A stretch of DNA of 30,047 nucleotides from a virus (IMGVR_UViG_3300028553_000120:1-30047); one strand, 5' to 3'; positions 9,124 through 29,341 are shown, numbered from the stretch's first letter. The notes: generated by a model not told the origin, from the sequence alone. Translations and numbers: made by a program.

Positions 9124-9663
9124 TCAGCCCTCCGTGGTCAGACGGTTGGAGATCGTCACCCGCCCGGCATTGGCCGCGCGGGTGTACGCGAGATAGCTGT
9201 CCTTGCTGCTGAACTCCGCCTTGAGCGCCGGACTGCGGTCCCACTCCGCCGCGGCCTTCGCCTCCGGGTCGGCATGGTCCGCCGTTCCCGGCTCCTTGGG
9301 CGTGCGCTCGGCATAGTCGACCTGTACCGGCAGCCGCGCCAGCCACGCGCGCAGCGCCGCGGCCGGATCGCGCGGCGTGCGTGCGGTGTCGCCCGGATCG
9401 GCGAAATCGGCATGGGGCGCGGCATCGCCCGCCGCCAACCGCTCCAGCACGGCGGCCACCAGATCCCGGTCGGCGGGCAGCACCCGGCCGGCGGTCACCA
9501 GCGTCTCGGCAAAACTGATGCAGGCATCGCGCTCCAGCGCCGCGCGCTGGGCGGCAATCGACGCCTCGCGCTCGGCGAGGGCGGCGGCCTGCGCCTCCAG
9601 TTGGGTCTGGCGCGCAGCAATCGCTGCCTCGCGCTCCGCGAACTCGGCGGTCGGATCGGGCAT
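9124..9663 (-). CDS. Z: Nested scaffold gene (gpZ-like), in frame within I
   Basis: An internal ATG at 9663 begins MPDPTAEFAEREAAIAARQ and is preceded by GAGGACCCT, a good Shine-Dalgarno sequence at suitable spacing. Translation from it gives a 179-residue protein that is just the coiled-coil scaffold and C-terminus of the I gene. In Mu, the scaffold Z is made in this way from a start inside gene I. The ribosome site supports the same arrangement here, but expression cannot be seen from sequence alone. Confidence 0.6.
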   Translation of the reverse strand: MPDPTAEFAEREAAIAARQTQLEAQAAALAEREASIAAQRAALERDACISFAETLVTAGRVLPADRDLVAAVLERLAAGDAAPHADFADPGDTARTPRDPAAALRAWLARLPVQVDYAERTPKEPGTADHADPEAKAAAEWDRSPALKAEFSSKDSYLAYTRAANAGRVTISNRLTTEG

Positions 9664-10155
9664 AGGGTCCTCGGGATGATCAGCGGCCGGAGCGGCCGGA
9701 GCGGAAAAGTCGATAGTCAGGAACTCGGCCGGGTCGCTGGCGTCGGCGGCAAACTGCGCGACGGCCAAGCCCTTGACGGCAGGAATCGGCACCATCCCCA
9801 AATGCCGGAGATAGAGCGCGCCGGGCACGGGATTGGTCGGCGCGGTCGGGCGCCAGAACGATGCGGAGTGATAGCGGTAGCGGCCGGCTTGATGCGCGGC
9901 GGCAAACACGGGGTCAACGCGCTCGGCCTCGCCCAGCAGCAGCCCGGTGGCCGCGTCGTAGCGCAGCCCGCCGATCCAGCCCAGCGCTTCGGCATCCGCA
10001 GTCGGATGGCCGCGCACAATCGGCGCTGCCGACACCGCCGGGTCATAGGCTGCCGCGGCGGCGCTCAGATCGGCATCGGTGTAGTCGGTCGCACTGCCAT
10101 CCATCGCGGTCTGTCGACCACGACGGAAAATCTCGATAGGGGGGGTTGCGCTCAT
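9124..10155 (-). CDS. I: Mu-like prohead protease with C-terminal scaffold (gpI)
   Basis: The 343-residue protein starts MSATPPIEIFRRGRQTAMDG. Its N-terminal part (about 1-150) resembles the Mu gpI protease: PIVRGHPTADAEALGWIGGL supplies a likely catalytic His, and YRYHSASFWRP a likely Ser. The part after about 165 is a long Ala/Glu/Arg coiled coil (EAAIAARQTQLEAQAAALAE), the scaffold. The protease matures the head, and the scaffold guides assembly. I chose ATG 10155 because the promoter-like module upstream has the same spacing as that of the amidase gene. It heads the second late unit and has no Shine-Dalgarno sequence, so the message may be nearly leaderless. Confidence 0.88.
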   Translation of the reverse strand: MSATPPIEIFRRGRQTAMDGSATDYTDADLSAAAAAYDPAVSAAPIVRGHPTADAEALGWIGGLRYDAATGLLLGEAERVDPVFAAAHQAGRYRYHSASFWRPTAPTNPVPGALYLRHLGMVPIPAVKGLAVAQFAADASDPAEFLTIDFSAPAAPAADHPEDPMPDPTAEFAEREAAIAARQTQLEAQAAALAEREASIAAQRAALERDACISFAETLVTAGRVLPADRDLVAAVLERLAAGDAAPHADFADPGDTARTPRDPAAALRAWLARLPVQVDYAERTPKEPGTADHADPEAKAAAEWDRSPALKAEFSSKDSYLAYTRAANAGRVTISNRLTTEG

Positions 10156-10211
10156 GGCTTGGCAGTGTGCCAAGCGGCGCGGCGCGGGGCGCGGTGCAGG
10201 GCTGCACCGCG
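10156..10211 (-). promoter_or_regulatory. Candidate late promoter PI with activator palindrome
   Basis: A perfect inverted repeat, arms CGCGGTGCAG and CTGCACCGCG around GG, spans 10190-10211. On the minus strand it is followed 20 bases later by CACACT (10169-10164), which has the A and T most conserved in a -10 box, itself inside a 7-bp inverted repeat (CTTGGCA/TGCCAAG). A start 7 bases beyond the box would fall about 2 bases before ATG 10155, placing the palindrome centre near -43, the class II activator position. In Mu, promoter PI in front of gene I is switched on by activator C. The same module precedes the amidase gene. Confidence 0.65.
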
Positions 10212-10341
10212 GGCGGATCAGGGGTGCAGACGCTCAGGATACGCCCCCGCGCCCGGAGGCGCTAGGAGGCGATTACAGCCATCGGCGCGCGCGGCGCTCC
10301 CAACGTACCGGCAAAACCTGTCGCACGGTCCCAGGTAGTTG

Positions 10342-10367
10342 CGCAACCGTTGCGCAACACGGTTGCG
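10342..10367 (-). terminator. Hairpin at the end of the first late unit
   Basis: Ten bases after the stop of the G gene, the minus strand can form an 8-bp stem (CGCAACCG with CGGTTGCG) around a 10-base loop. Two adjacent copies of the palindrome GTTGCGCAAC (10338-10347 and 10349-10358) overlap it. No T-run follows, so a factor-independent terminator is not certain. Its place between the G gene and the second late promoter fits partial termination or RNA processing. The rest of 10212-10376 holds no gene that I can support. Confidence 0.45.
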
Positions 10368-10376
10368 GGATGGGGG

Positions 10377-10847
10377 TCAGCGCAGATAGTGCCGCACCAG
10401 GTCCAGGATGTCCTCCTCGGCCCCTGGGGCCAGCTCGCCGGTACCGGACACCGGCAGCACGCGCCGCGGCGGCAGATTGCGCTCCGGGTCGCCCAGAGTC
10501 ACCGCCGCGCCGTAGACCCGACCGATCGACACCGCCGCCGAATGCGCGTCGCCTTGATGCGCGAGGCTCGCGGCCAGCAGACCATCGCGCTGGAGAATAG
10601 GATGGGCATCGCCGCCGCGGCCGCCGTCCTCGCGGGGGCGCTCCACATAGGCGTCCGACAAGTCCGGCCAGCGGTCGCCCCAGGGATCGGTCTCGGCCTG
10701 GATCGCATCCTCGGCCAGGTGGCCGAGGCTACGGGCAATGTCTTCCATGACGGGGGTCATGTCTTCGACGCGGTTGAGCAGGCGCTCCAGGGCCTGGCGG
10801 ACCTCGCGGTTGTCAATCTTGACTTCGAAAGGGGGGTAGGTGGGCAT
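10377..10847 (-). CDS. G: Mu gpG-like virion morphogenesis protein
   Basis: The 156-residue product matches the phage virion morphogenesis (Mu gpG / tail completion S) family. An N-terminal amphipathic region (VEDMTPVMEDIARSLGHLAE) is followed by the typical W(G)DRWPDLSDAYVERP segment, then HPILQRDGLLAASLAHQGDA and a closing PPRRVLPVSG. It joins tail to head late in assembly. It follows the F-like gene, as in Mu. No Shine-Dalgarno sequence stands before ATG 10847; a short upstream open frame ends 3 bases earlier and may couple its translation. Confidence 0.88.
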   Translation of the reverse strand: MPTYPPFEVKIDNREVRQALERLLNRVEDMTPVMEDIARSLGHLAEDAIQAETDPWGDRWPDLSDAYVERPREDGGRGGDAHPILQRDGLLAASLAHQGDAHSAAVSIGRVYGAAVTLGDPERNLPPRRVLPVSGTGELAPGAEEDILDLVRHYLR

Positions 10848-10850
10848 GGC

Positions 10851-10886
10851 TCAATAGTCCACAGTGATCTCGACTTGAACCTGCAT
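10851..10886 (-). CDS. Possible 11-codon leader frame before G
   Basis: ATG 10886 opens a frame for MQVQVEITVDY that ends 3 bases before the G start. It is preceded by GGAG at 9-base spacing, whereas G itself has no such site. Ribosomes ending here could restart on G. The frame is so short that chance is a real alternative; only its ribosome site and placement argue for it. Confidence 0.35.
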   Translation of the reverse strand: MQVQVEITVDY

Positions 10887-10928
10887 GGTCGTTAGCTCCG
10901 GAACAAAACAGGCACACCCGCCAGCCGC

Positions 10929-11141
10929 TTAAGGGCGGAACTGCGGCCCTCGCCGGGCTGACACTGGGCATCCAGCCAGGCGAGTTTGTTCGTATTGCTC
11001 CGGCGGCAACGGCGTCAGGGGGCGCGACCGCTGGCGGCCACCGCGCAGACACTTGGCATCGCCATAGAAGGCCCCGCGGGCGCAGGTCGGGATTTGATCT
11101 AACCGGATGGATCGCGCGGCCCGACCGCCCTCACCGACCAC
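10929..11141 (-). CDS. Possible small Cys-containing protein
   Basis: A frame from GTG 11141, overlapping the end of the F-like gene by 11 bases, encodes 70 residues. Its middle, PTCARGAFYGDAKCLRGG, and later LAGCP resemble small phage proteins of the form C...F....CL...G...P......L...C. The frame fills what would otherwise be a 280-base gap in a tightly packed operon. It lacks an ATG unless translation starts at 11165 inside the F-like gene, and lacks a clear ribosome site. Function is unknown. Confidence 0.4.
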   Translation of the reverse strand: MVGEGGRAARSIRLDQIPTCARGAFYGDAKCLRGGRQRSRPLTPLPPEQYEQTRLAGCPVSARRGPQFRP

Positions 11142-12036
11142 TCGACCCCGCGCCGCGCGATCCATTGATCACCGCCTCGCGAACCCCATCCCCCAACTCC
11201 CGCGCCTTAGTCATCACCTGATCGACCAGCGCCCGCTCCGCCCCATCCGACCCCGGCAGATGATCCCACCCCACATCCGCCCACAGCACCGACCGTCCGG
11301 TCGGGCTCAGCGGATCGGCGATACTCACCCCGCGCTGCATCCGCGGCGCCGGGCTCTCGCCGGTGAGCGGATCGGCCGGCGCCGGGGCGGGCCGCTCCAG
11401 GATGCGCACCCCTTCGGCGGGCGCGAGGTTGCGCCGCGCCAACTCCCGATCGCTCAGGTAGCGCGCGCGGCAGCGGCAATTGTACCCATTGGTCGGGGCG
11501 ATCACCGCCCACTCGGGTGAGTCCAGGCGAAACACCTTGCCGTGCAACGCCGCATGGGCCGGCCGCGTGCGGCTGTCGCGCACCGCCAGATACTGCGCCC
11601 AGGGCGCGCGGTCGATCTGGCTCAGCGCTTGGGTGTGGCGCCCGGCCATGTAGGCGGTCTGGAGATTGGTCCGGTAGATGGTCTGCAGCCGGCGCAGGCT
11701 GCCCTGCTGGATGATGCGCGCCTCCAGCGTATCCGGGTCGACGCGGACCTCCGGCCCCCACCAGCCTTTGCGGCGCAGCACGTCGACCAGCTGCTGCCTG
11801 AACCAGGCTTCGGTCTGGCCCTCATCCATCGCCGCCTGCACCGCATCGCGGATATCGGTGAGCACGTCGAGCTTAGCGAGATTCGCCACGGTGAACACTT
11901 GGCTGTGCTCCGAGCCGTCCAACTCCCAGTACGGCCCGGTGAGTTGCAGTCCTTTCGCAAGCAGATACGCCCTTGCGCGCTCCGGCGTCATCCGAAAGAG
12001 GGCGGTCAGGTCAGGGAGCACGGCGGATGTCCTCAT
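11131..12036 (-). CDS. F: Mu gp30/F-like head morphogenesis protein (SPP1 gp7 family)
   Basis: The 301-residue protein from ATG 12036 has the minor head protein signature. This includes helices with RLQTIYRTNLQTAYMAGRHT, the segment YLAVRDSRTRPAHAALHGKV, and the diagnostic NGYNCRCRARYLSDRELAR near residues 195-215. Members sit at the portal vertex and help start head assembly and DNA packaging. It follows the portal gene as in Mu, but a small Cys-rich gene lies between them and overlaps its start by 26 bases. The longer upstream frame (to 12159) is less likely because it crosses that gene. The C-terminal region is rich in Pro and Arg. Confidence 0.9.
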   Translation of the reverse strand: MRTSAVLPDLTALFRMTPERARAYLLAKGLQLTGPYWELDGSEHSQVFTVANLAKLDVLTDIRDAVQAAMDEGQTEAWFRQQLVDVLRRKGWWGPEVRVDPDTLEARIIQQGSLRRLQTIYRTNLQTAYMAGRHTQALSQIDRAPWAQYLAVRDSRTRPAHAALHGKVFRLDSPEWAVIAPTNGYNCRCRARYLSDRELARRNLAPAEGVRILERPAPAPADPLTGESPAPRMQRGVSIADPLSPTGRSVLWADVGWDHLPGSDGAERALVDQVMTKARELGDGVREAVINGSRGAGSSGR

Positions 12037-12223
12037 AGAGCAGCATTTCCGGGCCGCAGATCGGCACCTCGCGGTCCGGCACGTGCCAGGCGCGGGCGTC
12101 AGCGATGGTCGGCTGATGCAACCGCGGATGCATACAGTGGATGTGATCGAACCGCGCATGATCCACAGTTTTCAAGGTACACCACCGGCACGTGGCCAGG
12201 GGCTCAGTCGGCCGCGGGGGCAT
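12011..12223 (-). CDS. Small Cys-rich, zinc-ribbon-like protein
   Basis: A frame from ATG 12223, overlapping the portal end by 20 bases and the F-like start by 26, encodes 70 residues. Cysteines at 12, 15, 30 and 56 (CRWC, HCMHP, ICGPE) with nearby His suggest a metal-binding fold. The ending AWHVPDREVPICGPEMLLYE resembles small phage proteins of the C..C...C.HP...AR...CG type. It is not present between portal and F genes of Mu itself. The length, overlaps on both sides and ordered Cys spacing support a real gene. The partner or role is unknown. Confidence 0.6.
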   Translation of the reverse strand: MPPRPTEPLATCRWCTLKTVDHARFDHIHCMHPRLHQPTIADARAWHVPDREVPICGPEMLLYEDIRRAP

Positions 12224-13868
12224 CGGCGGTCTCGTCGTCGACTTCCAGCCGCCCCAGGGCGTCGGCCGCCGCCACCCCGCGCTCCAGGAGGTCGGTGAGC
12301 GCAGCATCGTCCAGCGCCCCATACCACTCGTCGAGCCGGGCGAGGATTTGCTCCGGGGTCAGTCCGTCCGCCAGGGCGGTCAGGATGGGGGCCAGCAGTT
12401 CCTCCGCCGCCGCCTGATAGGCTTCAGGGTCCGGCTCGGCGGCGGTGATCTGGTCTTGCGGGTCGGGCACCGCCGGCTCGGCATGGTCGGCGCTGGGCGT
12501 CAGTGCGTTGCGCAAGGCCGCACGCACGCGCTCGGTGGGCGCAGGGGCGCCGGGGGCCGCGGGCGGCGCGGGGTCCGGATCGGTGGTGGGCTCCAACTCC
12601 ACATCATAGGTGTCGGTGAGATAGGCCACGGTCAGGCGCTGGCCGCAGCCGGCGGCCAGGTCCATGATGATCCGATCCCGCTCGGCCAGGGGCTTCAGGT
12701 CCGGCTCGCTGGCGATGCGGCGCCAGACTTGCGGCGCGGGCACGGTGTCGCCGAAATTCCAGGCCGTCAACCATCGCGCCGGCCCGACGTTGAAGCTGCC
12801 GCAGATCAGGTCCGCATCGGCCTTGATGATGTTGTCGGCGACCGCGTTGGCGCGGTCCTCGCCACCGAGCCGACCGGGGGTGGCGTCGGCAGCAGCGGAG
12901 TGCCCGACCAGCACCTTGGAGATGGCTGCGTCCATGACTTGGTGCAGCGCGGCATAGTCGGCGGTGCCGGAGCGCGCGGCCTCCAGCAGCCGCACCACCA
13001 TGCCCTGGGGGATGATGATGCCGGAGTCGGAGCGCACGGCGCGCACCGCGGCCAAGAGCTTGTTTTGCTGGGCAGGCGTCGCGTTGGTGGGGAACTCGCC
13101 GATGGTGGTCGGCAGGCCCAGCTTGTCCAGGAAGGTCAGCCAGACCTTGAGATCGGCGCGCTTGAAGTAGACCGGCCAATACAGCCAGTGCGCGAGCCCC
13201 AGGCCGTAAGGGTCATCGGTGCAATCGTTGTGGTTGGTGAAGCTCCAGAACTTCTGGCGCGGCAGCGCCTCGCCCAGCGGGTTGGCGCTGGTGATCAGCC
13301 GAATCGCCCCGTCCGGCGCAAAGCCGAACCGCCGCGACTTGCGCACCGCGACCCGATCGAGCACCACCTCGCGGCCGTCGCGCTGCCACAGGCACTCACC
13401 GACGCCAAAGCCGGGGAAGATGCCGTGCAGCATCACCTCGCTGACGGCATCCCAGCCGGGCATCGGCTGCGCCTGCTCGCCCGCGTCGGTGTCGGACTCG
13501 CCGCCCAGGTCTTCCAGCATCGCTTGCAGCGACTCGGCCGCCTGCTTGGCCTTGGCCTTGCTGTACTGACCGCGGCGCTTGCCGGGCAGCACTTCCCACT
13601 CTTTGCTTACCAACGCCTTCTTGCGCTGCATCAGCCCGGTCTGCACCTGGGGATCGGTCTGCAATTGCTCATAGATCTGGTAGTCGCCGCCCGCGCGCCC
13701 CAGCAGCAGGTAGTCGCTCGGTCCCAGCAGGTCCAGCGTGTCGACATAGCCGCGGGTGATGTCGCGCCCGTCCTTGGTGGTAGCGACCTCGCCCAGCGGG
13801 GGCGCGGCGGCATGGTCGGCGACCAGGCCGGGCAGCAGGCGGGCGGCGAGTCGGGTCAGCACAGTCAT
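12204..13868 (-). CDS. Mu gp29-like portal protein (DUF935)
   Basis: The 554-residue protein fits the DUF935 portal family of Mu gp29. The N-terminal region has YVDTLDLLGPSDYLLLGRAG and DPQVQTGLMQRKKALVSKEW. The central core has GWDAVSEVMLHGIFPGFGVG and PYGLGLAHWLYWPVYFKRAD, then LPTTIGEFPTNATPAQQNKL. An acidic, Pro- and Ala-rich C-terminal arm follows (about 430-554). Twelve copies should form the ring through which DNA enters the head. It starts 3 bases after a small gene, not directly after terminase as in Mu. Its end overlaps the Cys-rich gene. Confidence 0.92.
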   Translation of the reverse strand: MTVLTRLAARLLPGLVADHAAAPPLGEVATTKDGRDITRGYVDTLDLLGPSDYLLLGRAGGDYQIYEQLQTDPQVQTGLMQRKKALVSKEWEVLPGKRRGQYSKAKAKQAAESLQAMLEDLGGESDTDAGEQAQPMPGWDAVSEVMLHGIFPGFGVGECLWQRDGREVVLDRVAVRKSRRFGFAPDGAIRLITSANPLGEALPRQKFWSFTNHNDCTDDPYGLGLAHWLYWPVYFKRADLKVWLTFLDKLGLPTTIGEFPTNATPAQQNKLLAAVRAVRSDSGIIIPQGMVVRLLEAARSGTADYAALHQVMDAAISKVLVGHSAAADATPGRLGGEDRANAVADNIIKADADLICGSFNVGPARWLTAWNFGDTVPAPQVWRRIASEPDLKPLAERDRIIMDLAAGCGQRLTVAYLTDTYDVELEPTTDPDPAPPAAPGAPAPTERVRAALRNALTPSADHAEPAVPDPQDQITAAEPDPEAYQAAAEELLAPILTALADGLTPEQILARLDEWYGALDDAALTDLLERGVAAADALGRLEVDDETADAPAAD

Positions 13869-13871
13869 GGG

Positions 13872-14072
13872 TCAGCTCGCGAGGGGGATCGATTCAAGGG
13901 TGCCGCCTTGGCGCAGGGTCGCCAGCAGCATGGCGGCGGCGGTGCATTCGGCGATGCTCAGGCTGGGGTCGCTGTGCAGGTAGCGCTCCAGGAGGTCGGC
14001 GATATCGAGCGACGCGGTGATCAGCGTCTCGCCGGGCGCCGCGGTGTCGATGTCGATGCGGATGGTGGTCAT
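13872..14072 (-). CDS. Small unknown protein between terminase and portal
   Basis: A 66-residue acidic protein (MTTIRIDIDTAAPGETLITA, then a helical ALLERYLHSD-like region) starts at ATG 14072 in an ATGA overlap with the terminase stop and ends 3 bases before the portal start. I recognise no family. The N-terminal beta stretch followed by helices suggests a compact domain. In Mu the terminase and portal genes are adjacent, so this is an added gene; a small terminase- or portal-associated factor is possible but unproven. Confidence 0.65.
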   Translation of the reverse strand: MTTIRIDIDTAAPGETLITASLDIADLLERYLHSDPSLSIAECTAAAMLLATLRQGGTLESIPLAS

Positions 14073-15817
14073 GCCCAGCCCTGGAAATCCAGGCCAGTGC
14101 CGACGCTGCCCCAGCCGACCGGGGCGGTCTCGGTCACCTGGCCGGCGGTGCGGGCGGCCGGGAGCTGGTAGCCCTCGGCGGCCACCTGGTCGCGCGGGCC
14201 GGCGCTCTGGAAGTCGACCGGGCCGCCGGCGGGATGCCGCGCGGCGAACGCCATCAGGCACCCGGCGATGGCGCCGTCGCCGTGGCGGATCAGGTCCGGG
14301 TCTTTGAGATCGGCGCGCTCCAGCTTGGGAATCATGGCAATGCCGTCGACATACTCGATGGCGCGCAGGTCGTCCTCGAGGGACGCATCGCGCGGCAAGG
14401 AAATAAAACCGTCCTCGAACAGCGAGATAAACGGCCCCATGTGCGCCCCGTACCAAGCACGCGACAGCACGATCTCATGCACCGGGCCGCCGATGTAGGT
14501 GCCGGGGTGCTCGGGATGCTCTTGCGCGCGGCCGTAGCGGTCGCCGGTGTATTCCATCAGCGTCTGACCGGGGCCGGTGGCATCCCCGGCGAAGGTCCAG
14601 CCGGTGAGGGTGTCGAGCAGCCACCACAGGATTTGTTGCTGTTGACGGGTCGGCGCGTTCGCCAACTCCAACACGAAGGGGGCAGCGCGGCCCAACTCCT
14701 GCGTGATGCGCGCCGGGATGATGACCGACATGTGCCGGTGCCGGGCGAAGTCCATCCCGATCGCCCAGCGGCAGCCAAGCGGCGCGGCGGCAATGGCGTC
14801 GCGCACCACGGGCGCCAGGTGGGTGCCGATCCAGGTCTGGCACCAAAGCTCGCGCGCGCGCTCCGACTGGCGCGGGAAATCGTCGTCGCAGACCAGGCGG
14901 ACCACCGGCAACACGGCAGGCATGGCGCGCTCGATCCACACGGACGGGATCGCAGTGCCGGCGCCGTCGCGGGGGATGGCGTCCAGTTCCTCGCGCATCG
15001 CGGCGGCGCGCGGGCCGTAGGCGGCGCGGATCGCGGTGTACCAGGTGCGCTTACCCTCCGCGGTCGGGGCCTTGCCTTGCATCGCGCAGACGCGCTCATA
15101 CAGGCCGTTTTCGACCGCGGTGTCGAAGGTAATGCGGATGGCGCCGGCCTTGGCGCCGTAGCGGCCGGCGCGCACGTCGGTCAGTAGTTCATTGAAGGGG
15201 TTATTTTTCCCCCGGTGCGTAGACCACACGCGAATTTTTCCGCCCCAGATCAGCAGCGCGGTCGCGCTCTCCAGTACGGCCCTCACGTTCTTGTGCAGCG
15301 CGGCCTCGTCGATGCCGACCACGCCTTGCAGGCCGTGGATGTTTTCCGGCCGGCTGGACAGCGCCGTGATGCGGTAGCCGCTGGCGAAGCGCACGCGGTA
15401 CGACTGGATGTCGCGGCTGCCGCCCTCGGCGGTCTGATCCACGAAGATGTGCGACTCGATCAGCGTCGCCTGGCCGGCGGCCACCAGGCGGGCGAACCGC
15501 GCGACATAGCCGATGTATTCCAGGCCCTTCTCGCGGGTGTCCGCCATGTACCAGACGTTGGAGCCGCCGGCGGCTTTGTCGCTCGCGGCCGTGATGGTAT
15601 CGGCCAGCGCCTGGGCGAAGGTGATCCCGGTGCGGCGGCCCTTTTCGCAGACCGCAATGTCCAACCCCTGCTGCATCCGAATCCAATCGGACTGGTGCTG
15701 CATCAGCACGCCCTCGCGGCGCGGGTCGAAGTCGGCCGGGATCTGGCGCACCGCGTCGGGCAGCTCGTCCCAGTCGACGATGCGCTGGGTATCCGGGAGC
15801 GGGGCGGGGACGGCCAT
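14069..15817 (-). CDS. Mu gp28-like terminase large subunit
   Basis: The 582-residue protein has both parts of a large terminase. The ATPase part includes a Walker-A-like loop CEKGRRTGIT (58-67), with R in the glycine-rich loop as in many terminases, and Walker B VVGIDEAA (166-173), followed by IRVWSTHRGKNNPFNE. The nuclease part has WAIGMDFARHRHMSVII with a likely metal-binding Asp near 356, and FAGDATGPGQTLMEYTG. It cuts and packages DNA, working with the DUF3486 protein and portal. ATG 15817 overlaps the DUF3486 stop by ATGA; GTG 15820 is an alternative one codon earlier. Confidence 0.93.
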   Translation of the reverse strand: MAVPAPLPDTQRIVDWDELPDAVRQIPADFDPRREGVLMQHQSDWIRMQQGLDIAVCEKGRRTGITFAQALADTITAASDKAAGGSNVWYMADTREKGLEYIGYVARFARLVAAGQATLIESHIFVDQTAEGGSRDIQSYRVRFASGYRITALSSRPENIHGLQGVVGIDEAALHKNVRAVLESATALLIWGGKIRVWSTHRGKNNPFNELLTDVRAGRYGAKAGAIRITFDTAVENGLYERVCAMQGKAPTAEGKRTWYTAIRAAYGPRAAAMREELDAIPRDGAGTAIPSVWIERAMPAVLPVVRLVCDDDFPRQSERARELWCQTWIGTHLAPVVRDAIAAAPLGCRWAIGMDFARHRHMSVIIPARITQELGRAAPFVLELANAPTRQQQQILWWLLDTLTGWTFAGDATGPGQTLMEYTGDRYGRAQEHPEHPGTYIGGPVHEIVLSRAWYGAHMGPFISLFEDGFISLPRDASLEDDLRAIEYVDGIAMIPKLERADLKDPDLIRHGDGAIAGCLMAFAARHPAGGPVDFQSAGPRDQVAAEGYQLPAARTAGQVTETAPVGWGSVGTGLDFQGWA

Positions 15818-16392
15818 CACATGCCCATGAGGACTTTTTCGCGCCAGAACTGCGCTTCTTCCGCCGACAGGCCGCGCGCTTGGGCGGCGCTGCCGATGCG
15901 CTCGGCAGCGGCGGCGCGCTCGGCGGCGGCGGCCTCGTCGGCGATGCGGCGGCGCTCTTCGGTGGTGTAGCGGCGCTGGTAGACCGCGGCGCGCTGGGCT
16001 TGGACGATGGGCGTCGCCAGCTTGCCAAGCAGCTTGATGCGGTCGTCGATGGGCATGTCGACCGCGCCGCGCAGCTCCTTGGCGGCGCGCACTAACTGAT
16101 CTGTCATCAGCCTTCCGGCCATGTCGTTGAGCGAGGCCTGTTGGTCGGGGTCTTCGTCGACCAACATACGCGACAGTTCGGCCATGGCGCGGACCTCGCG
16201 CATCGTGTCGTCGTACTCGTCTTTAAGCGCTTTGACGTGCTTGCCTACGGCCGACTTGCCGATGTCGTAGCCTTCGCAGCGCAGCCAGATCGTCAGCGGG
16301 ATGATGTCGCCCCAGCCGGCCGCGGCAGCGCGCTCGGCCAGCTCGCTGCGGACGTCGGGCGGCAACCGGTCGATCTTGCGGGGCGGGGGCAT
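15817..16392 (-). CDS. Mu gp27-like DUF3486 protein, putative small terminase
   Basis: The 191-residue protein starts MPPPRKIDRLPPDVRSELAE, the typical DUF3486 opening, followed by WGDIIPLTIWLRCEGYDIGK and SAVGKHVKALKDEYDDTMRE. This is a helix-turn-helix-like N-terminal domain, then a long helical region (RIADEAAAAERAAAAERIGS). DUF3486 proteins stand just before the terminase large subunit in Mu-like phages and are considered small terminase subunits that recognise DNA. Both borders are ATGA overlaps. Confidence 0.9.
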   Translation of the reverse strand: MPPPRKIDRLPPDVRSELAERAAAAGWGDIIPLTIWLRCEGYDIGKSAVGKHVKALKDEYDDTMREVRAMAELSRMLVDEDPDQQASLNDMAGRLMTDQLVRAAKELRGAVDMPIDDRIKLLGKLATPIVQAQRAAVYQRRYTTEERRRIADEAAAAERAAAAERIGSAAQARGLSAEEAQFWREKVLMGM

Positions 16393-16655
16393 CAGCGGGC
16401 ACGGCGCACGGGGGCGCCGGGGCGGGCTGCGACGATGCGGGCGGCGGCGACAGCCAGATCCATCAGCGGCCAACTGGCCGGGCGGCACGGGCATTCGCCA
16501 ACCGGCCACACGCTCCATTGGTCGTCGCTCAGGCGCACCACCGTCAGGCCGCAGATCAGGCCGCGCGAGCGGATCGGCAGATCGGCCAGCACCGCGGCGA
16601 CGGCCGCGCCTTGGGCGGTGGTTTCGGCCAGCGCGTCGATGGTGGCCTCGCTCAT
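16392..16655 (-). CDS. Small unknown protein, related to an early small gene
   Basis: This 87-residue protein carries LTVVRLSDDQWSVWPVGECP in its middle. The early gene product at 26356-26616 carries VSVVRLTSDRWEIAGG in a similar position, followed in both by an Ala/Leu helix, so the two look paralogous. The rest is a helical N-terminus and a basic C-terminus (VRRAR). It lies between the gp26-like and DUF3486 genes with ATGA overlaps on both sides. No function is known. Confidence 0.65.
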   Translation of the reverse strand: MSEATIDALAETTAQGAAVAAVLADLPIRSRGLICGLTVVRLSDDQWSVWPVGECPCRPASWPLMDLAVAAARIVAARPGAPVRRAR

Positions 16656-16957
16656 GGCCGCGGCCGGGCCACGCCCGGCTCGTGCGCACGGCCCAGCGCC
16701 ACATCCTCACCGCGCAGCGTGAGCCGCGCGACTTGGGTGTCGGTCCCCATCACGGTGATCAGCGCCTCCGGCCGGCTGTCGAGCCAGGCCAGATGGCTGC
16801 GCAGCGTGCCGTAGTCGATGCTGCGCCCCAGGGCGCCCAGGGCGGTGCGCAGCACATGCTCATGGGCGGTGTAGGCCGGGGCGCCGGCCAGCACTTGCAG
16901 GATGACCAGGCGCTGGTCTTCAGCGACCGCGGCCCGGTAGTCGGCGGGGGTGCTCAT
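16652..16957 (-). CDS. Mu gp26-like small winged-helix protein
   Basis: The 101-residue product starts MSTPADYRAAVAEDQRLVIL and resembles the short VpaChn25_0724/gp26-type proteins found between DUF2730 and DUF3486 genes. It shows a winged-helix outline: QRLVILQVLAG, then HEHVLRTALGALGRSIDYGT, a recognition-type helix LRSHLAWLDS and a wing with VARLTLRGEDVA. The role could be DNA binding near packaging, but this is unproven. Both ends overlap neighbours by ATGA. Confidence 0.75.
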   Translation of the reverse strand: MSTPADYRAAVAEDQRLVILQVLAGAPAYTAHEHVLRTALGALGRSIDYGTLRSHLAWLDSRPEALITVMGTDTQVARLTLRGEDVALGRAHEPGVARPRP

Positions 16958-17352
16958 GGGTGGCGATCTCCGGTGCGGGGGCCGTGCGCCAGCAGGTGCT
17001 GCGACATCATGTCGACGCTGCACTCGATGCGGTGCACGGTCCCTGAGATTTCGCCCACCGATTGCGTGAGCTTGTCGATGCGCTCATGGGTGCGCACGAT
17101 GTCGGCCTGGCCGAGGCTCTTGCCGATCTGGATTTCCAGCGCACTCATGCGCGCCTTGTGGGCCTGGCAGTCGGGCCCGGGCGGATGGCTTTCGACCACG
17201 GCGAGGCGGGTGTCGATCTTGCGCAGGAACTCGGCGGCAGCGGTGTCGCGCCGGGCCAGCGTGGCCCAGGCAGCGAGGCTGCCTCCGACAATTCCGCTGA
17301 GAATAAAGCGCCCCCAATCCGATGCAATCCTTACATAATCGGCCTCGGTCAT
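16954..17352 (-). CDS. DUF2730 membrane and coiled-coil protein (Mu gp25-like)
   Basis: The 132-residue protein has an N-terminal membrane segment (about 13-33, FILSGIVGGSLAAWATLARR) followed by a coiled-coil region (FLRKIDTRLAVVESH, then DIVRTHERIDKLTQSVGEI). This is the DUF2730 outline, and its position between lysis genes and the gp26-like gene is as in Mu. Its job is unknown; an inner-membrane lysis accessory is possible. ATG 17352 overlaps the upstream stop by ATGA. Confidence 0.83.
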   Translation of the reverse strand: MTEADYVRIASDWGRFILSGIVGGSLAAWATLARRDTAAAEFLRKIDTRLAVVESHPPGPDCQAHKARMSALEIQIGKSLGQADIVRTHERIDKLTQSVGEISGTVHRIECSVDMMSQHLLAHGPRTGDRHP

Positions 17353-17642
17353 GATCCCTCCGGTGGGTAGTGGTCCAGCGCGGCGGATAGCCGCGTCTGT
17401 GCGCGATCGAGCGCCGCACAGTTGGCGCTCAGCCGATCCGTGGCATCCGCCAAGTGATCCAGGTGTGAGCGCTCGATGGCGGTGTGCAGATCTGCGATGG
17501 CGGCGACACACAACCCGTGATAGTGCCGCGCGATGGCCCGCGCGGCCTGGCGGCTGGCCCACTGCGCCCAGCACAGCAGCGCCGTCTGTGCCAGGCTGAG
17601 GGCCAGCACGGCCCCGAGCAACGCGGCGCAGCTCAGGCGCAT
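17349..17642 (-). CDS. Putative spanin-like membrane protein
   Basis: This 97-residue protein starts MRLSCAALLGAVLALSLAQT with one strong membrane segment to about residue 25. The rest is a helical, His- and Ala-rich periplasmic-type region (HLADATDRLSANCAALDRAQ). This single-anchor, coiled-coil layout and its place after the holin-like gene suggest an i-spanin that bridges the envelope at lysis. The sequence is too divergent to name a family. It starts 10 bases after the holin stop without a clear ribosome site, so another start within the frame is possible. Confidence 0.6.
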   Translation of the reverse strand: MRLSCAALLGAVLALSLAQTALLCWAQWASRQAARAIARHYHGLCVAAIADLHTAIERSHLDHLADATDRLSANCAALDRAQTRLSAALDHYPPEGS

Positions 17643-17652
17643 GGCTGCGCAC

Positions 17653-17937
17653 TCAGCGCCGGGGCAGGCGCGCCAACAGCCACTCGGTGGCCGCGGTGAC
17701 GATGGGCATGGGGGCGATGGGCTGCGCTGCCCATGCGCGGCCACCGATCCCGGCGGCGCCGAGCGTGATCTGGGTCACCGCCAGGACGGCGGCATCGCCG
17801 GGCAGCCAGCCGAGGGCGACACCCAGCAGTAGGGCCAGGCCGACGCCGATCTGGCCGAGGTTGGCCCAGATGGTGGCCGAGTCGAACCAGGGTTTTGGCG
17901 CTTCCGTGGGAAAAGGGACGGTCTGCGGATCAGTCAT
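17653..17937 (-). CDS. Putative holin (two membrane segments)
   Basis: From ATG 17937 the product is 94 residues: a polar N-terminus (MTDPQTVPFPTEAPKPWFDS), then IGVGLALLLGVALGWLPG and AVLAVTQITLGAAGIGGRAW as two membrane segments, and a basic end (LLARLPRR). Length, two hydrophobic helices and direct linkage to the amidase gene (8-base overlap) fit a class II-type holin that releases the endolysin. The assignment rests on topology and context, not on a named family. Confidence 0.72.
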   Translation of the reverse strand: MTDPQTVPFPTEAPKPWFDSATIWANLGQIGVGLALLLGVALGWLPGDAAVLAVTQITLGAAGIGGRAWAAQPIAPMPIVTAATEWLLARLPRR

Positions 17938-18547
17938 GATGGACTCCAGGATAGGCCGCCAGGGCGGCGCGAAACGCGGGCCAGTCCCACGCGGGGCCGG
18001 GGTCCCGCTTCCGCTTGGGGGCGATGTCGTCGTGGCCGATGATGGGCTGCACCGATGGGTAGCGCTGGCGGATGGCGGCGCAGACGGCGGCCACCGCGGC
18101 GACTTGGGCCGCGGGGTAGACCTCCCACGCGCGGACCGTGCGCTCCAGCCGATGGGGCAGATGCAGGGTTGGGGTGCCGGGCTGCGCCTTGCGGGTGTCC
18201 CAGCCGTAGTTGGCCATCTCAATGCCGATAGCGTAGTCATTGAGCATGGACCACTGCTGATAGGTCGATTTGCCGGCGTGCCAGGTCTTGACATTGCACG
18301 GGGCCAACTGCCAGATGCGCCCGTCGCGCTCGATCACGAGATGGGCTGAGGCTCTGGCTTTTCGGTCGCACAGCCAGCGGGCGGAGCCCAGCGCGGACCC
18401 GCCCCCGGTGTAGTGCAGCACGATGGCGCGCGGGGCGAGCGCACCGCTGAGATTGGGCGTGCGCAGGGTGTGATCCACCGGGGCGGCAGGCGGGCCCGCT
18501 TGCAGCCGGTGATGGGCGTCGATGAGGTAGTGGGGTGCGGGGCTCAT
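17930..18547 (-). CDS. Phage endolysin, N-acetylmuramoyl-L-alanine amidase
   Basis: The 205-residue enzyme belongs to the Amidase_2 (AmpD/T7 lysozyme) family that cuts the amide bond between muramic acid and the peptide. Expected zinc ligands are His45 (AIVLHYTGGG), His172 and Asp182 (IIGHDDIAPKRKRDPGP). Glu110 in YAIGIEMANYG matches the AmpD-type catalytic region, and SAHLVIERDGRIWQLAP is also typical. It has no signal peptide, so it needs the downstream holin. ATG 18547 heads the first late unit, directly behind the candidate late promoter, without a Shine-Dalgarno sequence. Confidence 0.93.
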   Translation of the reverse strand: MSPAPHYLIDAHHRLQAGPPAAPVDHTLRTPNLSGALAPRAIVLHYTGGGSALGSARWLCDRKARASAHLVIERDGRIWQLAPCNVKTWHAGKSTYQQWSMLNDYAIGIEMANYGWDTRKAQPGTPTLHLPHRLERTVRAWEVYPAAQVAAVAAVCAAIRQRYPSVQPIIGHDDIAPKRKRDPGPAWDWPAFRAALAAYPGVHHD

Positions 18548-18603
18548 GCCCGACAGTGTGCCGGGCGAAGGGGGTCAGGGGCGCGGTGCAGGGCTGCACC
18601 GCG
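18548..18603 (-). promoter_or_regulatory. Candidate late promoter Plys with activator palindrome
   Basis: The same 22-bp palindrome found before gene I (arms CGCGGTGCAG and CTGCACCGCG around GG) occupies 18582-18603. Its near edge is 35 bases from the start codon, exactly as at gene I. CACACT (18560-18555) follows after 21 bases, within an imperfect inverted repeat just before the ATG. In Mu, activator C turns on Plys before the lysis gene; the arrangement here corresponds. The Mor/C-like protein encoded just upstream is the obvious candidate to bind. The sequence between 18604 and 18635 is G-rich and shows nothing else. Confidence 0.65.
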
Positions 18604-18635
18604 GGGGTCAGGGTGGGGGGGGATGCAAACCACTT

Positions 18636-18709
18636 GTAGGTTGGGGTGAGGAACGAACCCCAACATTCCCGTTTGTTATCGTTGGGGTTCGTTCCTCACC
18701 CCAACCTAC
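18636..18709. repeat. Perfect 29-bp inverted repeat, REP-like
   Basis: Arms at 18636-18664 and 18681-18709 are perfect inverted copies of 29 bases (start GTAGGTTGGGG), with a 16-base loop. This sequence type (TAGGTTGGG..GAGGAACGAA.CCCAAC) is a repeat seen between genes in many bacterial genomes, and is thought to be REP-like. Here it lies between the activator gene and the late promoter. It could end early transcripts or be a host repeat that moved into the phage. The flanking stretch 18710-18765 holds no gene. Confidence 0.9.
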
Positions 18710-18765
18710 GAGCTCGAACTTTGCGTCAGCCTCCGCGCGGTCCCTGACGTAAATCGTGTGCTCAG

Positions 18766-19155
18766 TTACAAGTCTAACATCAACTGCCGCGCCGGCTCCC
18801 CCGCCGGCACCTGCCCCCCCCGCTCGCGCGCCAGCAGCTCGCGCACCCAGCGCAGCGAGATGCCCTCGGCCCGCGCGATCCGCGCGGCGGTCACGCCCTG
18901 CGCGTGCTGTTCGAGCACGCGCGCGGCGCGCGCCGCGGCCACCGCCGCGGTCAGCTGGGGCACGCCGATTTCCTCGCCCGCGTAGGTCTGCTGGAGCCGC
19001 GCATAGATCTCGGGGCCGAGCCGCTCGGCCAGTTCGGTGTCGAGGCGCGGGCGCGTGTGCACCCGGATGCGCAGGCCCCCATAGGCGCGCACCAGCACCG
19101 CCAGGCCCTCGGGGCCGAGGGCGTCGTGCAGGTCGCGCAGATGGGGAGTCAGCAT
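18766..19155 (-). CDS. mor: Mor/C-type transcription activator
   Basis: The 129-residue product begins MLTPHLRDLHDALGPEGLAV and contains GLRIRVHTRP and LAERLGPEIYARLQQTYAGE, typical of the Mor dimer domain. A C-terminal helix-turn-helix follows: QHAQGVTAARIARAEGISLR, then WVRELLARE. In Mu, Mor activates the middle promoter and the related C activates late promoters; here only one such gene is visible and it may do the late job. I chose ATG 19155 because GAGGTGA stands 5 bases before it; GTG 19164 overlaps the previous stop and is an alternative. It is last in the early operon. Confidence 0.88.
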   Translation of the reverse strand: MLTPHLRDLHDALGPEGLAVLVRAYGGLRIRVHTRPRLDTELAERLGPEIYARLQQTYAGEEIGVPQLTAAVAAARAARVLEQHAQGVTAARIARAEGISLRWVRELLARERGGQVPAGEPARQLMLDL

Positions 19156-27655: not shown

Positions 27656-27967
27656 TCAACTCGCCGGTGTCGTGATGCGCTTGGCCAGTTCGGCCGCGCG
27701 CCGCTCCGCGTCATCGAGCGACCGGAGAATCCCGGCTGCCCGCTGTGCCCAGCGGATCGAGGGCCGCACCCGGTCGGTCCCGCTGATGCGCTCGATCGCC
27801 CCCCGATCGTCCAGCGTCGCCAGGTAGCGCGTCACCGCGCTGCCCGACAGCCCCAACTCCCGGCGCACATCGCCGGGCGTCAGGCCCACGCTGTAATCGG
27901 CGCGGAACAGCAGATCGAGCACGTCGAGAACGGCGCCGGCACTGGCGACCGTCTCGGTAGTGGCCAT
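27656..27967 (-). CDS. Winged helix-turn-helix protein
   Basis: The 103-residue product contains a winged-helix domain of IclR/MarR type: VLDVLDLLFRADYSVGLTPG, then DVRRELGLSGSAVTRYLATL and DDRGAIERISGTDRVRPSIR. The recognition helix is near residues 42-52. It probably binds DNA and may regulate early genes. ATG 27967 overlaps the DUF3164 stop by ATGA. The frame stays open upstream to 28219, but that part reads through the KSAN repeats in another frame and is not likely to be coding. Confidence 0.8.
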   Translation of the reverse strand: MATTETVASAGAVLDVLDLLFRADYSVGLTPGDVRRELGLSGSAVTRYLATLDDRGAIERISGTDRVRPSIRWAQRAAGILRSLDDAERRAAELAKRITTPAS

Positions 27968-28701
27968 CAGTTGCGCCCCTCGGCATCGGCCAAATTGGCC
28001 AAATTGGCCAAATTGGCGGATTTGTCCGGCGCGTCGGCGGCATCCAAATCCGCCAATTTGGCGGATTTGACCGGGGCGTCGGCCGGCTGAATCGCGGAGA
28101 AGTCGAGCGGAATCTGCCGCCACGGCTGCGTCGCATCGTCGCGCTCGTAGACCCGGAAGTAGGTCACGGAACCCTGCGCCTGGAGCGAGTCGCGGATTGC
28201 CTGTTGCGCGGATCGCCACCGTGGGTCGTCGATCTTCACCGCCACGAAGTCCAGGAGGCGCGCGACATTCAACTGCCCCGTCTTGGTGTTCCTCCGGAAC
28301 GCCCGGTCGACGATCGCTACGAGCGCCGGCCCCGCCTCCCGCGTCGCATCCGCCAGGTACTCACGCACCAGCGCCTCGGCCGCGTGGATCTGCTCGCCGA
28401 CCACCACCCGATCCGCACTCACCCGCTCGACCTTCAGCCGGCTGGCGTAGTTGGGCAGCACGCAATTACCGCTGGTTCCGGTGATATCCACGTCATACTC
28501 GGACGCCACCAGCGCCACATGCTCGGCCACCTCGGCCAAGAACTGCGCCTTGAGCGCGGCCATGTCCGCGTTGACCCGCCGCGCCACGGCGCCGAGCTTG
28601 TTCACCAGGTGGTCGCGCAGCAGATCGACCTCTGGCACATTCTTGAGGGGCACCAGGCGATCCTGGCCGTCGAGCAGATAGCCGGCAGGTACCTCGCTCA
28701 T
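27967..28701 (-). CDS. DUF3164 family protein with repetitive C-terminal tail
   Basis: The 244-residue protein follows the DUF3164 family of Mu-like phages: YLLDGQDRLVPLKNVPEVDL near the start, then FLAEVAEHVALVASEYDVDI, LVAIVDRAFRRNTKTGQLNV and VTYFRVYERDDATQPWRQIP. The family part ends near residue 205. A tail of about 38 residues follows, with KSAKLADLDAADAPDKSANL and two further ANLA repeats, encoded by tandem DNA. The role of the family is unknown. ATG 28701 overlaps the upstream stop by ATGA. Confidence 0.87.
   Translation of the reverse strand: MSEVPAGYLLDGQDRLVPLKNVPEVDLLRDHLVNKLGAVARRVNADMAALKAQFLAEVAEHVALVASEYDVDITGTSGNCVLPNYASRLKVERVSADRVVVGEQIHAAEALVREYLADATREAGPALVAIVDRAFRRNTKTGQLNVARLLDFVAVKIDDPRWRSAQQAIRDSLQAQGSVTYFRVYERDDATQPWRQIPLDFSAIQPADAPVKSAKLADLDAADAPDKSANLANLANLADAEGRN
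27990..28016. repeat. Three tandem 9-bp repeats in the DUF3164 gene end
   Basis: CCAAATTGG occurs three times head to tail (27990, 27999, 28008), followed by CGGATTTG. On the coding strand these are AAT TTG GCC units that give NLA repeats. The 9-base unit is nearly palindromic. Confidence 0.95.
28045..28069. repeat. Perfect 25-bp palindrome within coding sequence
   Basis: Arms of 12 bases, CAAATCCGCCAA and its inverse, surround one central T at 28057. It lies 28 bases from the three 9-bp repeats and shares CCGCCAAATTGGCGG-type sequence with the site at 27270-27290. It encodes KSAKLADL of the DUF3164 tail. A protein-binding site within the gene is possible. Confidence 0.85.
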
Positions 28702-28982
28702 CGCCCACCCCCCGCCGCCGTCACGACGCGCGGAATCCGCCACTCCACCACCACCCCCTGATCCATCTGCGACACCAGCGTCTCGGCGTGCCGAGACCAC
28801 CGGGACCGCGCCGGCCGGCGTCCGGTCCAGGTCCGCGGCGGTGCCACCGTCACCCGCGCCCCCGCTGTCGACGCATGGGCCGCCAACACCTCCACCCCCT
28901 CCGCGCTCAGCCGCCCGCACGCTGCCAGCCCGGCCAGCGCCGCCTCGCGCACCGTCATCACTCGCGCCATCGGTCCGCTCAT
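28698..28982 (-). CDS. Unknown early protein
   Basis: The 94-residue product starts MSGPMARVMTVREAALAGLA, then ACGRLSAEGVEVLAAHASTA and a basic patch RTWTGRRPARSRWSRHAETL. No family is recognised; the patch suggests nucleic acid binding. ATGA overlaps mark both ends; GTG 28985 is a possible start one codon earlier. Confidence 0.65.
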   Translation of the reverse strand: MSGPMARVMTVREAALAGLAACGRLSAEGVEVLAAHASTAGARVTVAPPRTWTGRRPARSRWSRHAETLVSQMDQGVVVEWRIPRVVTAAGGGR

Positions 28983-29341
28983 CACTCAGCCCTCGGTTCC
29001 CGGCCATCGGCCGGCGTTGCCCGGCGTCCGCGCCCCACGCGCGACCGCTCGGTGTGTTCAAGTTTCCCGCGCGGATACGGCACCACCGCCGACCCCAGGT
29101 CAGCCCGCAGCGCGTCGACAATCGCCGCGCCCTCGCTCCCCTGCGGCGCCAGCCCGCGCTCCAGTTGCCGGCGGATCGTCGAGATCGCCGTCTGGTACGC
29201 CGCCTGCCGCGCCCGGCCGTTGGCATCCGCCCAGGCCGCGACCCAGCCGCGCAGTGACGTTCCGCGTGTAATCAACTCGGCGCGGATTCCGCGCATCACC
29301 GCGTCGGATTTTTCTGACGTGCGGGGCGTAGATCGCGCCAT
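28982..29341 (-). CDS. First early gene, Ner-like DNA-binding protein
   Basis: From ATG 29341 the product is 119 residues and basic. Residues about 15-60 (MRGIRAELITRGTSLRGWVA, then AWADANGRARQAAYQTAIST) resemble the (R)GTSLR.WA...G helix-turn-helix seen in the first early gene of many Mu-like phages, in the place of Mu ner. It probably tunes early and repressor transcription. ATG 29363 is an alternative start that would give an almost leaderless message from the candidate promoter. The C-terminus is basic and disordered. Confidence 0.72.
   Translation of the reverse strand: MARSTPRTSEKSDAVMRGIRAELITRGTSLRGWVAAWADANGRARQAAYQTAISTIRRQLERGLAPQGSEGAAIVDALRADLGSAVVPYPRGKLEHTERSRVGRGRRATPADGREPRAE

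Follow-up and report, generated by a model that had tools for sequence, protein, structure and literature searches.

Two identical 22-bp palindromes stand upstream of the first lysis gene and the first capsid gene of a Mu-like phage, and comparison with Mu and with related phages indicates that they are very probably binding sites of the phage's own late-gene activator, a member of the Mor/C family. The sequence analysed, hereafter the window, is a virus record of 30,047 bases from IMG/VR and is a fragment. We consider it probable that the whole model holds, in which the palindromes would be operators of the activator encoded at 18766-19155 and would be accompanied by near-leaderless starts and by a -10 element bracketed by a second inverted repeat; binding, activation, transcript start, mode of translation and the second repeat's role are predicted throughout. 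The operator sequence described here is new; the promoters, as read from the sequence, belong to a known kind and vary its architecture, with a repeat bracketing the -10 and the ATG at the predicted transcript start. The initial annotation had proposed an undescribed C-type operator; that description suits the operator sequence, whereas the kind of operator was already known.

Two identical palindromes and the genes behind them

The palindrome, CGCGGTGCAG-NN-CTGCACCGCG, occurs in two identical copies 8.4 kb apart, each upstream of a minus-strand gene (starts at 10155 and 18547; Table 1). At both sites 34 bases separate the palindrome from ATG AGC (an offset of 35), and 37 bases separate its 16-mer core from the ATG. 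The initial annotation had claimed two identical copies at an equal offset and had seen none elsewhere. The claim is exact in the sequence, and the observation agrees with our finding no further copy with up to three mismatches in the 30,047 bases (chance expectation 0.02). None of 100 shuffled sequences contained two copies of the palindrome, and a first-order simulation with the same dinucleotide make-up gave 0.23 palindromes of such length per 30 kb.

Table 1. Positions of the genes and of the candidate promoter elements in the window
Feature	Position	Strand	Remarks
Candidate operator palindrome, lysis-unit promoter	18582..18603	.	core 16-mer GGTGCAGCCCTGCACC at 18585-18600
Candidate operator palindrome, head-protease promoter	10190..10211	.	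core 16-mer at 10193-10208
Predicted -10 hexamer CACACT, lysis promoter	18555..18560	-	24 bp from 16-mer core, 7 nt before ATG; inferred
Predicted -10 hexamer CACACT, head-protease promoter	10164..10169	-	23 bp from 16-mer core, 8 nt before ATG; inferred
Second inverted repeat GCCCG-GCACACTGT-CGGGC	18548..18566	-	brackets -10, abuts ATG
Second inverted repeat GCTTGGC-ACACT-GCCAAGC	10157..10175	-	brackets -10
N-acetylmuramoyl-L-alanine amidase (lysis), first gene of lysis unit	17930..18547	-	Amidase_2 3.6e-30
Mu gpI-type head maturation protease, first gene of capsid unit	9124..10155	-	phrog_976 7.4e-65
Mor/C-family late transcriptional activator, presumed binder of both palindromes	18766..19155	-	phrog_836 1.1e-22, Pfam Mor

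The gene identities assigned earlier also hold, both for the amidase and protease I and for the Mor/C-like gene adjoining the first site, whose product scores 29.6 bits against a Pfam Mor cut-off of 24.9 (Table 1). This is the one Mor/C-family gene that was found adjoining the window sites, which are located before lys and I, as in Mor/C-dependent promoters. Other genes of the window are likewise Mu-like, among them a transposase, GemA, terminase, portal and homologues of F and G. A profile built from 13 activators, the window's included, matched Mu C (PDB 9l0x and 9vw8; 3e-4 and 4e-4) and Mor (1rr7; 5e-3); the best-scoring PDB chain for this profile was 8vd6, a 35-residue match to a different kind of protein. 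An AlphaFold model of the 18766-19155 product (pLDDT 75, pTM 0.48) returned only weak helix-turn-helix matches in a fold search, with no Mor among them.

An activator 75-76% identical to that of the window is present in Lamprocystis purpurea (L141:261-605), at the start of a contig and, by eye, close to a tRNA-like sequence; no operator was found near this gene, where the contig begins. The host of the phage may be a purple sulphur bacterium.

Spacing in Mu and in related phages

The starts of the four C promoters of Mu (lys, I, P and mom) have been mapped by S1 (PMC4461284). In all four, the half-site ATAA (AATAA in mom), whose edges were set by our choice, is followed after exactly 24 bp by the -10, which reads TAGACT, CAAACT, TATCCT and TAAGAT. 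In the window, CACACT stands at the same distance from the 16-mer core at lys and one base pair nearer at I, and is likely the -10 element of both promoters. Outside Mu, 24 bp also separate operator and hexamer in L081 (CAGTAT), ahead of I in L021 (CAGCAT), and at lys and I of both B23 (TAATCT, TAGTCT) and D3112 (CAGGAT, CACCAT); with the operator edges used, the distance is 23 bp in YPCBV-1, QH16 and Dennis. Every hexamer carries the two bases that matter most in a -10, A at position 2 and T at position 6, but this is the form that the search required: hexamers were picked by demanding NAnnnT within 22-26 bp of the operator, with some freedom of choice. From the sequences a common rule for the predicted promoters emerges, consisting of an operator, 23-25 bp, and an NAnnnT -10 hexamer.

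We read the palindromes as candidate Mor/C operators because this spacing equals that of Mu's mapped C promoters and because the layout is conserved in relatives. Like the C promoters of Mu, the window sites go with an activator of the Mor/C family, lie before lys and I, have the operator in the place of the -35 element, and show the 24 bp from half-site to NAnnnT hexamer; unlike them, they have an unrelated operator sequence, which is a perfect palindrome, and an inverted repeat around the -10. By eye, nothing resembling TTGACA was seen 17 bp from the hexamer in the window promoters, where the spacer is C-rich. There is a likeness here to the Mu middle promoter Pm, which has no -35 element and is bound by Mor, of the same activator family, at a dyad centred at -43.5 (PMC4287176). 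With the A of the ATG as the reference point, the dyad centre is at -45.5 in the window and at -44.5 in B23; the window value would become -43.5 to -44.5 if the RNA starts 1-2 nt earlier, the start itself being predicted. Pm drives the middle operon, whereas the window sites would drive late units.

Sought in relatives, the GGTGCAG operator reappeared in two distant phages, L081 and L021. In L081 (42% identity to the window in the portal protein), GGTGCAGCACTGCACC lies between the phage's own Mor-like gene and one of endolysin type, at the window's distance of 37 bases from the ATG; downstream of the operator comes GCCCGC-AGTAT-GCGGGC, then the ATG. L021 carries GGTGCAGCCCTGCACC ahead of an I-type gene and a one-mismatch copy ahead of a putative lysis gene, transglycosylase-like by eye; both sites are on one strand and 8.7 kb apart, a spacing much like the 8.4 kb of the window. 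The number of matches in viral contigs is not itself evidence, because the full promoter pattern gave 4 matches, two of which (L169 and L170) are apparently due to chance, and a control pattern with the wrong spacing gave 15. The bare 16-mer, GGTGCAGNNCTGCACC, occurs in at least 118 stretches of viral contigs, mostly by chance or in other families, and its count is uninformative.

In L187, the record of L021, around position 27772, the first ATG past the predicted lysis-side -10 opens an ORF of 11 codons whose TGA overlaps a GTG start of the lysis-like gene. This ORF could encode a leaderless leader peptide with coupled translation.

Other relatives have different palindromes in equal geometry, which, together with a hexamer distance equal to that of Mu's four promoters, supports the earlier prediction of a C-type operator ahead of the equivalents of Plys and PI. 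The Alteromonadaceae phage B23, with an activator 37% identical to the window's, and its relatives among viral contigs carry CCTGAA-N4-TTCAGG ahead of a lysis-region gene and ahead of I. Across six distinct sequences per promoter in this group, the arms are invariant at 12 of 12 positions, and the -10 region and the second repeat are conserved; the centre of the palindrome varies, as do the upstream flank and, for the most part, the first 18 bases of the spacer. The first lysis-region gene also differs among members of the group, with the promoter remaining constant. B23 itself has a third copy of the operator, with one mismatch, ahead of an apparent homologue of Mu gene P; the window record ends close to where a counterpart of Mu's PP would be expected. 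In D3112 and JBD30, GTTGAACCCCTTCC is common to the first late gene and I; JBD67 and B3 have GCCGCC-TCACTCTG-GGCGGC directly 5' of an ATG of I other than the annotated one; and in Stenotrophomonas phage QH16 and Xanthomonas phage Dennis, GTGCGGG-NN-CCCGCAC stands where the gene for a Mor-like activator ends. The putative late promoters of the B23 and D3112 types resemble those of the window in having an operator common to the first late gene and I, the 24-25 bp distance, a -10 inside an inverted repeat, and an ATG 6-7 nt beyond; they differ in that their operators are of the TGAA type, as against GTGCAG here. No clear promoter module was seen on inspection of KS10 and SuMu by eye, and when similar palindromes were sought in pairs without further restriction, matches in GC-rich coding sequence overwhelmed the result.

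The putative recognition helix of the activators reads SLRW or SLRQ where the operator is GGTGCAG and TERR or TERQ where it is of the TGAA type, with SDRW in D3112. That these residues track the type of operator is suggestive only, the independent cases being few.

Applied to protease I, the rule places the ATG elsewhere in the region than the annotated start in MP22 (L134), JBD67 (L139) and B3 (L168), and these annotated starts seem to be wrong. In MP22 the annotated start is in frame with, and downstream of, the ATG given by the rule.

The second inverted repeat and the start codon

At both window sites CACACT lies within a second inverted repeat, as had been stated in the initial annotation. 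Nine of ten sites have a repeat that pairs perfectly over 4 bp or more around a loop of 4-9 nt and ends 0-2 nt before the ATG, as against 35 of 293 control ORF starts (12%). This contrast is somewhat inflated, given that some of the sites are related to one another and some came to notice via the repeat (JBD67). Shuffling gave P values from 0.004 to 0.36 for individual repeats, and six of the repeats, folded as single-stranded DNA with DNA parameters, had z-scores of -2.9 to -4.5. The -10 sits in the loop. The arm sequences differ between the two window sites (GCCCG/CGGGC and GCTTGGC/GCCAAGC) yet still pair, which argues for a structure rather than a fixed protein site. Most likely, the second repeat helps to hold the promoter silent without the activator.

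The hexamer precedes the ATG by 7 and 8 nt in the window, by 7 in L081 and by 6 in B23 and D3112; from this distance of 6-8 nt we predict leaderless or near-leaderless late mRNAs, with the transcript starting at, or one to two bases from, the A of the ATG. The lack of a Shine-Dalgarno sequence reported in the initial annotation stands, in that none was detected at either ATG, but it does not set these genes apart: of 17 window genes that were scanned, the majority have no canonical one. Mu lys, by comparison, has a leader of about 20 nt or more with a Shine-Dalgarno sequence, whereas in the window the ATG is at the predicted start. Leaderless phage mRNAs include that of lambda cI and, reportedly, that of the P2 late gene V. 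Others are known from phage phiYS40 (PMC3594737). In such messages, too, the start codon is at or next to the 5' end with no Shine-Dalgarno sequence; those of the window differ in being predictions, and in concerning the genes that head a late regulon under Mor/C control. A literature search, mostly outside subscription journals, turned up neither a description of these promoters nor any account of late genes without leaders in D3112-like phages.

Whether the second repeat acts at the level of DNA or of RNA hinges on where the transcript starts. With the same activator and operators, transcripts might instead start further upstream and the second repeat might be an RNA hairpin before the AUG that controls translation. 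The repeat does abut the start codon, keeps its pairing while its sequence changes, as an RNA structure would, and folds well as a single strand (DNA parameters). However, the C-rich spacer, as far as it precedes the repeat, shows no plausible -10 by eye, and the hexamer with Mu's spacing lies inside the repeat, so that the left arm would be untranscribed. We consider such a hairpin improbable, and prefer a start at or beside the ATG.

Proposed mechanism and other readings of the palindromes

Under the model that we favour, a dimer of the activator would bind each palindrome, just upstream of where a -35 element would be and in its stead, and would help the host's sigma-70-type RNA polymerase to use the weak -10 CACACT 23-24 bp downstream. 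The lysis/packaging unit and the capsid unit would be switched on together late in infection, and ribosomes would read each unit's first gene from an mRNA with no leader or almost none. The GC-rich second repeat, bracketing the -10 and the discriminator and retained as a pairing structure, would most likely help to silence the promoter without the activator. A far broader generalisation would be a widespread class of Mu-like phages, D3112, JBD30 and B23 included along with the present one, in which a GC-rich inverted repeat formed in the DNA strands keeps the -10 in its loop and has to be opened with the help of Mor/C, transcription then starts at the AUG, and the late regulon is leaderless and obligately activator-dependent; this we regard as unlikely.

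Perfect palindromes just upstream of a promoter are also typical of repressor sites, and the palindromes might bind another regulator of phage or host, such as a repressor silencing both late units in the prophage. In L021 an XRE-type regulator adjoins the lysis-side site, and no Mor/C activator was detected in that fragment. Against this stand a position and spacing equal to those of the Mu C sites, the lack of an available -35 element, and the presence of a Mor-like gene upstream of the lysis-side site in the window, L081, B23, D3112, YPCBV-1, QH16 and Dennis, making another regulator decidedly improbable. Least credible of all, to the point of being very nearly dismissed, are terminators or dispersed repeats without a promoter role: the palindromes fold well as hairpins and lie between transcription units, but there are just two copies, at a fixed distance from two late genes, the layout is retained with different sequence in relatives, and no T-run follows, on which ground the terminator reading was rejected.

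If operators of Mor/C-family activators they are, the sequence rule (shared dyad, 23-25 bp, NAnnnT, ATG) would locate late promoters in Mu-like phages beyond Mu, and would correct gene starts, including those of laboratory Pseudomonas phages for which some records appear to place the start of I wrongly. A further prediction is that leaderless messages serve the genes that head the late regulon, among them those for lysis and capsid. One activator family with differing operators at a fixed geometry would be a natural system for the evolution of specificity.

Other repeats were noticed in the window. Between the activator gene and the lysis operator, at 18633-18712, is a REP-like element with arms of ~30 bp (GTAGGTTGGGGTGAGGAACGAACCCCAAC and its complement), a loop of ~20 bases and no T-run. 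The gap between genes G and I, which is the place of anti-CRISPR genes in D3112, JBD30 and MP22, contains at 10338-10358 a palindrome, GTTGCGCAACCGTTGCGCAAC, made up of two copies of GTTGCGCAAC. Inside an early-region ORF (27967-29226), tandem CCAAATTGGC repeats and a 25-bp palindrome occupy 27990-28069, and these could be either coding repeats or sites for a regulator.
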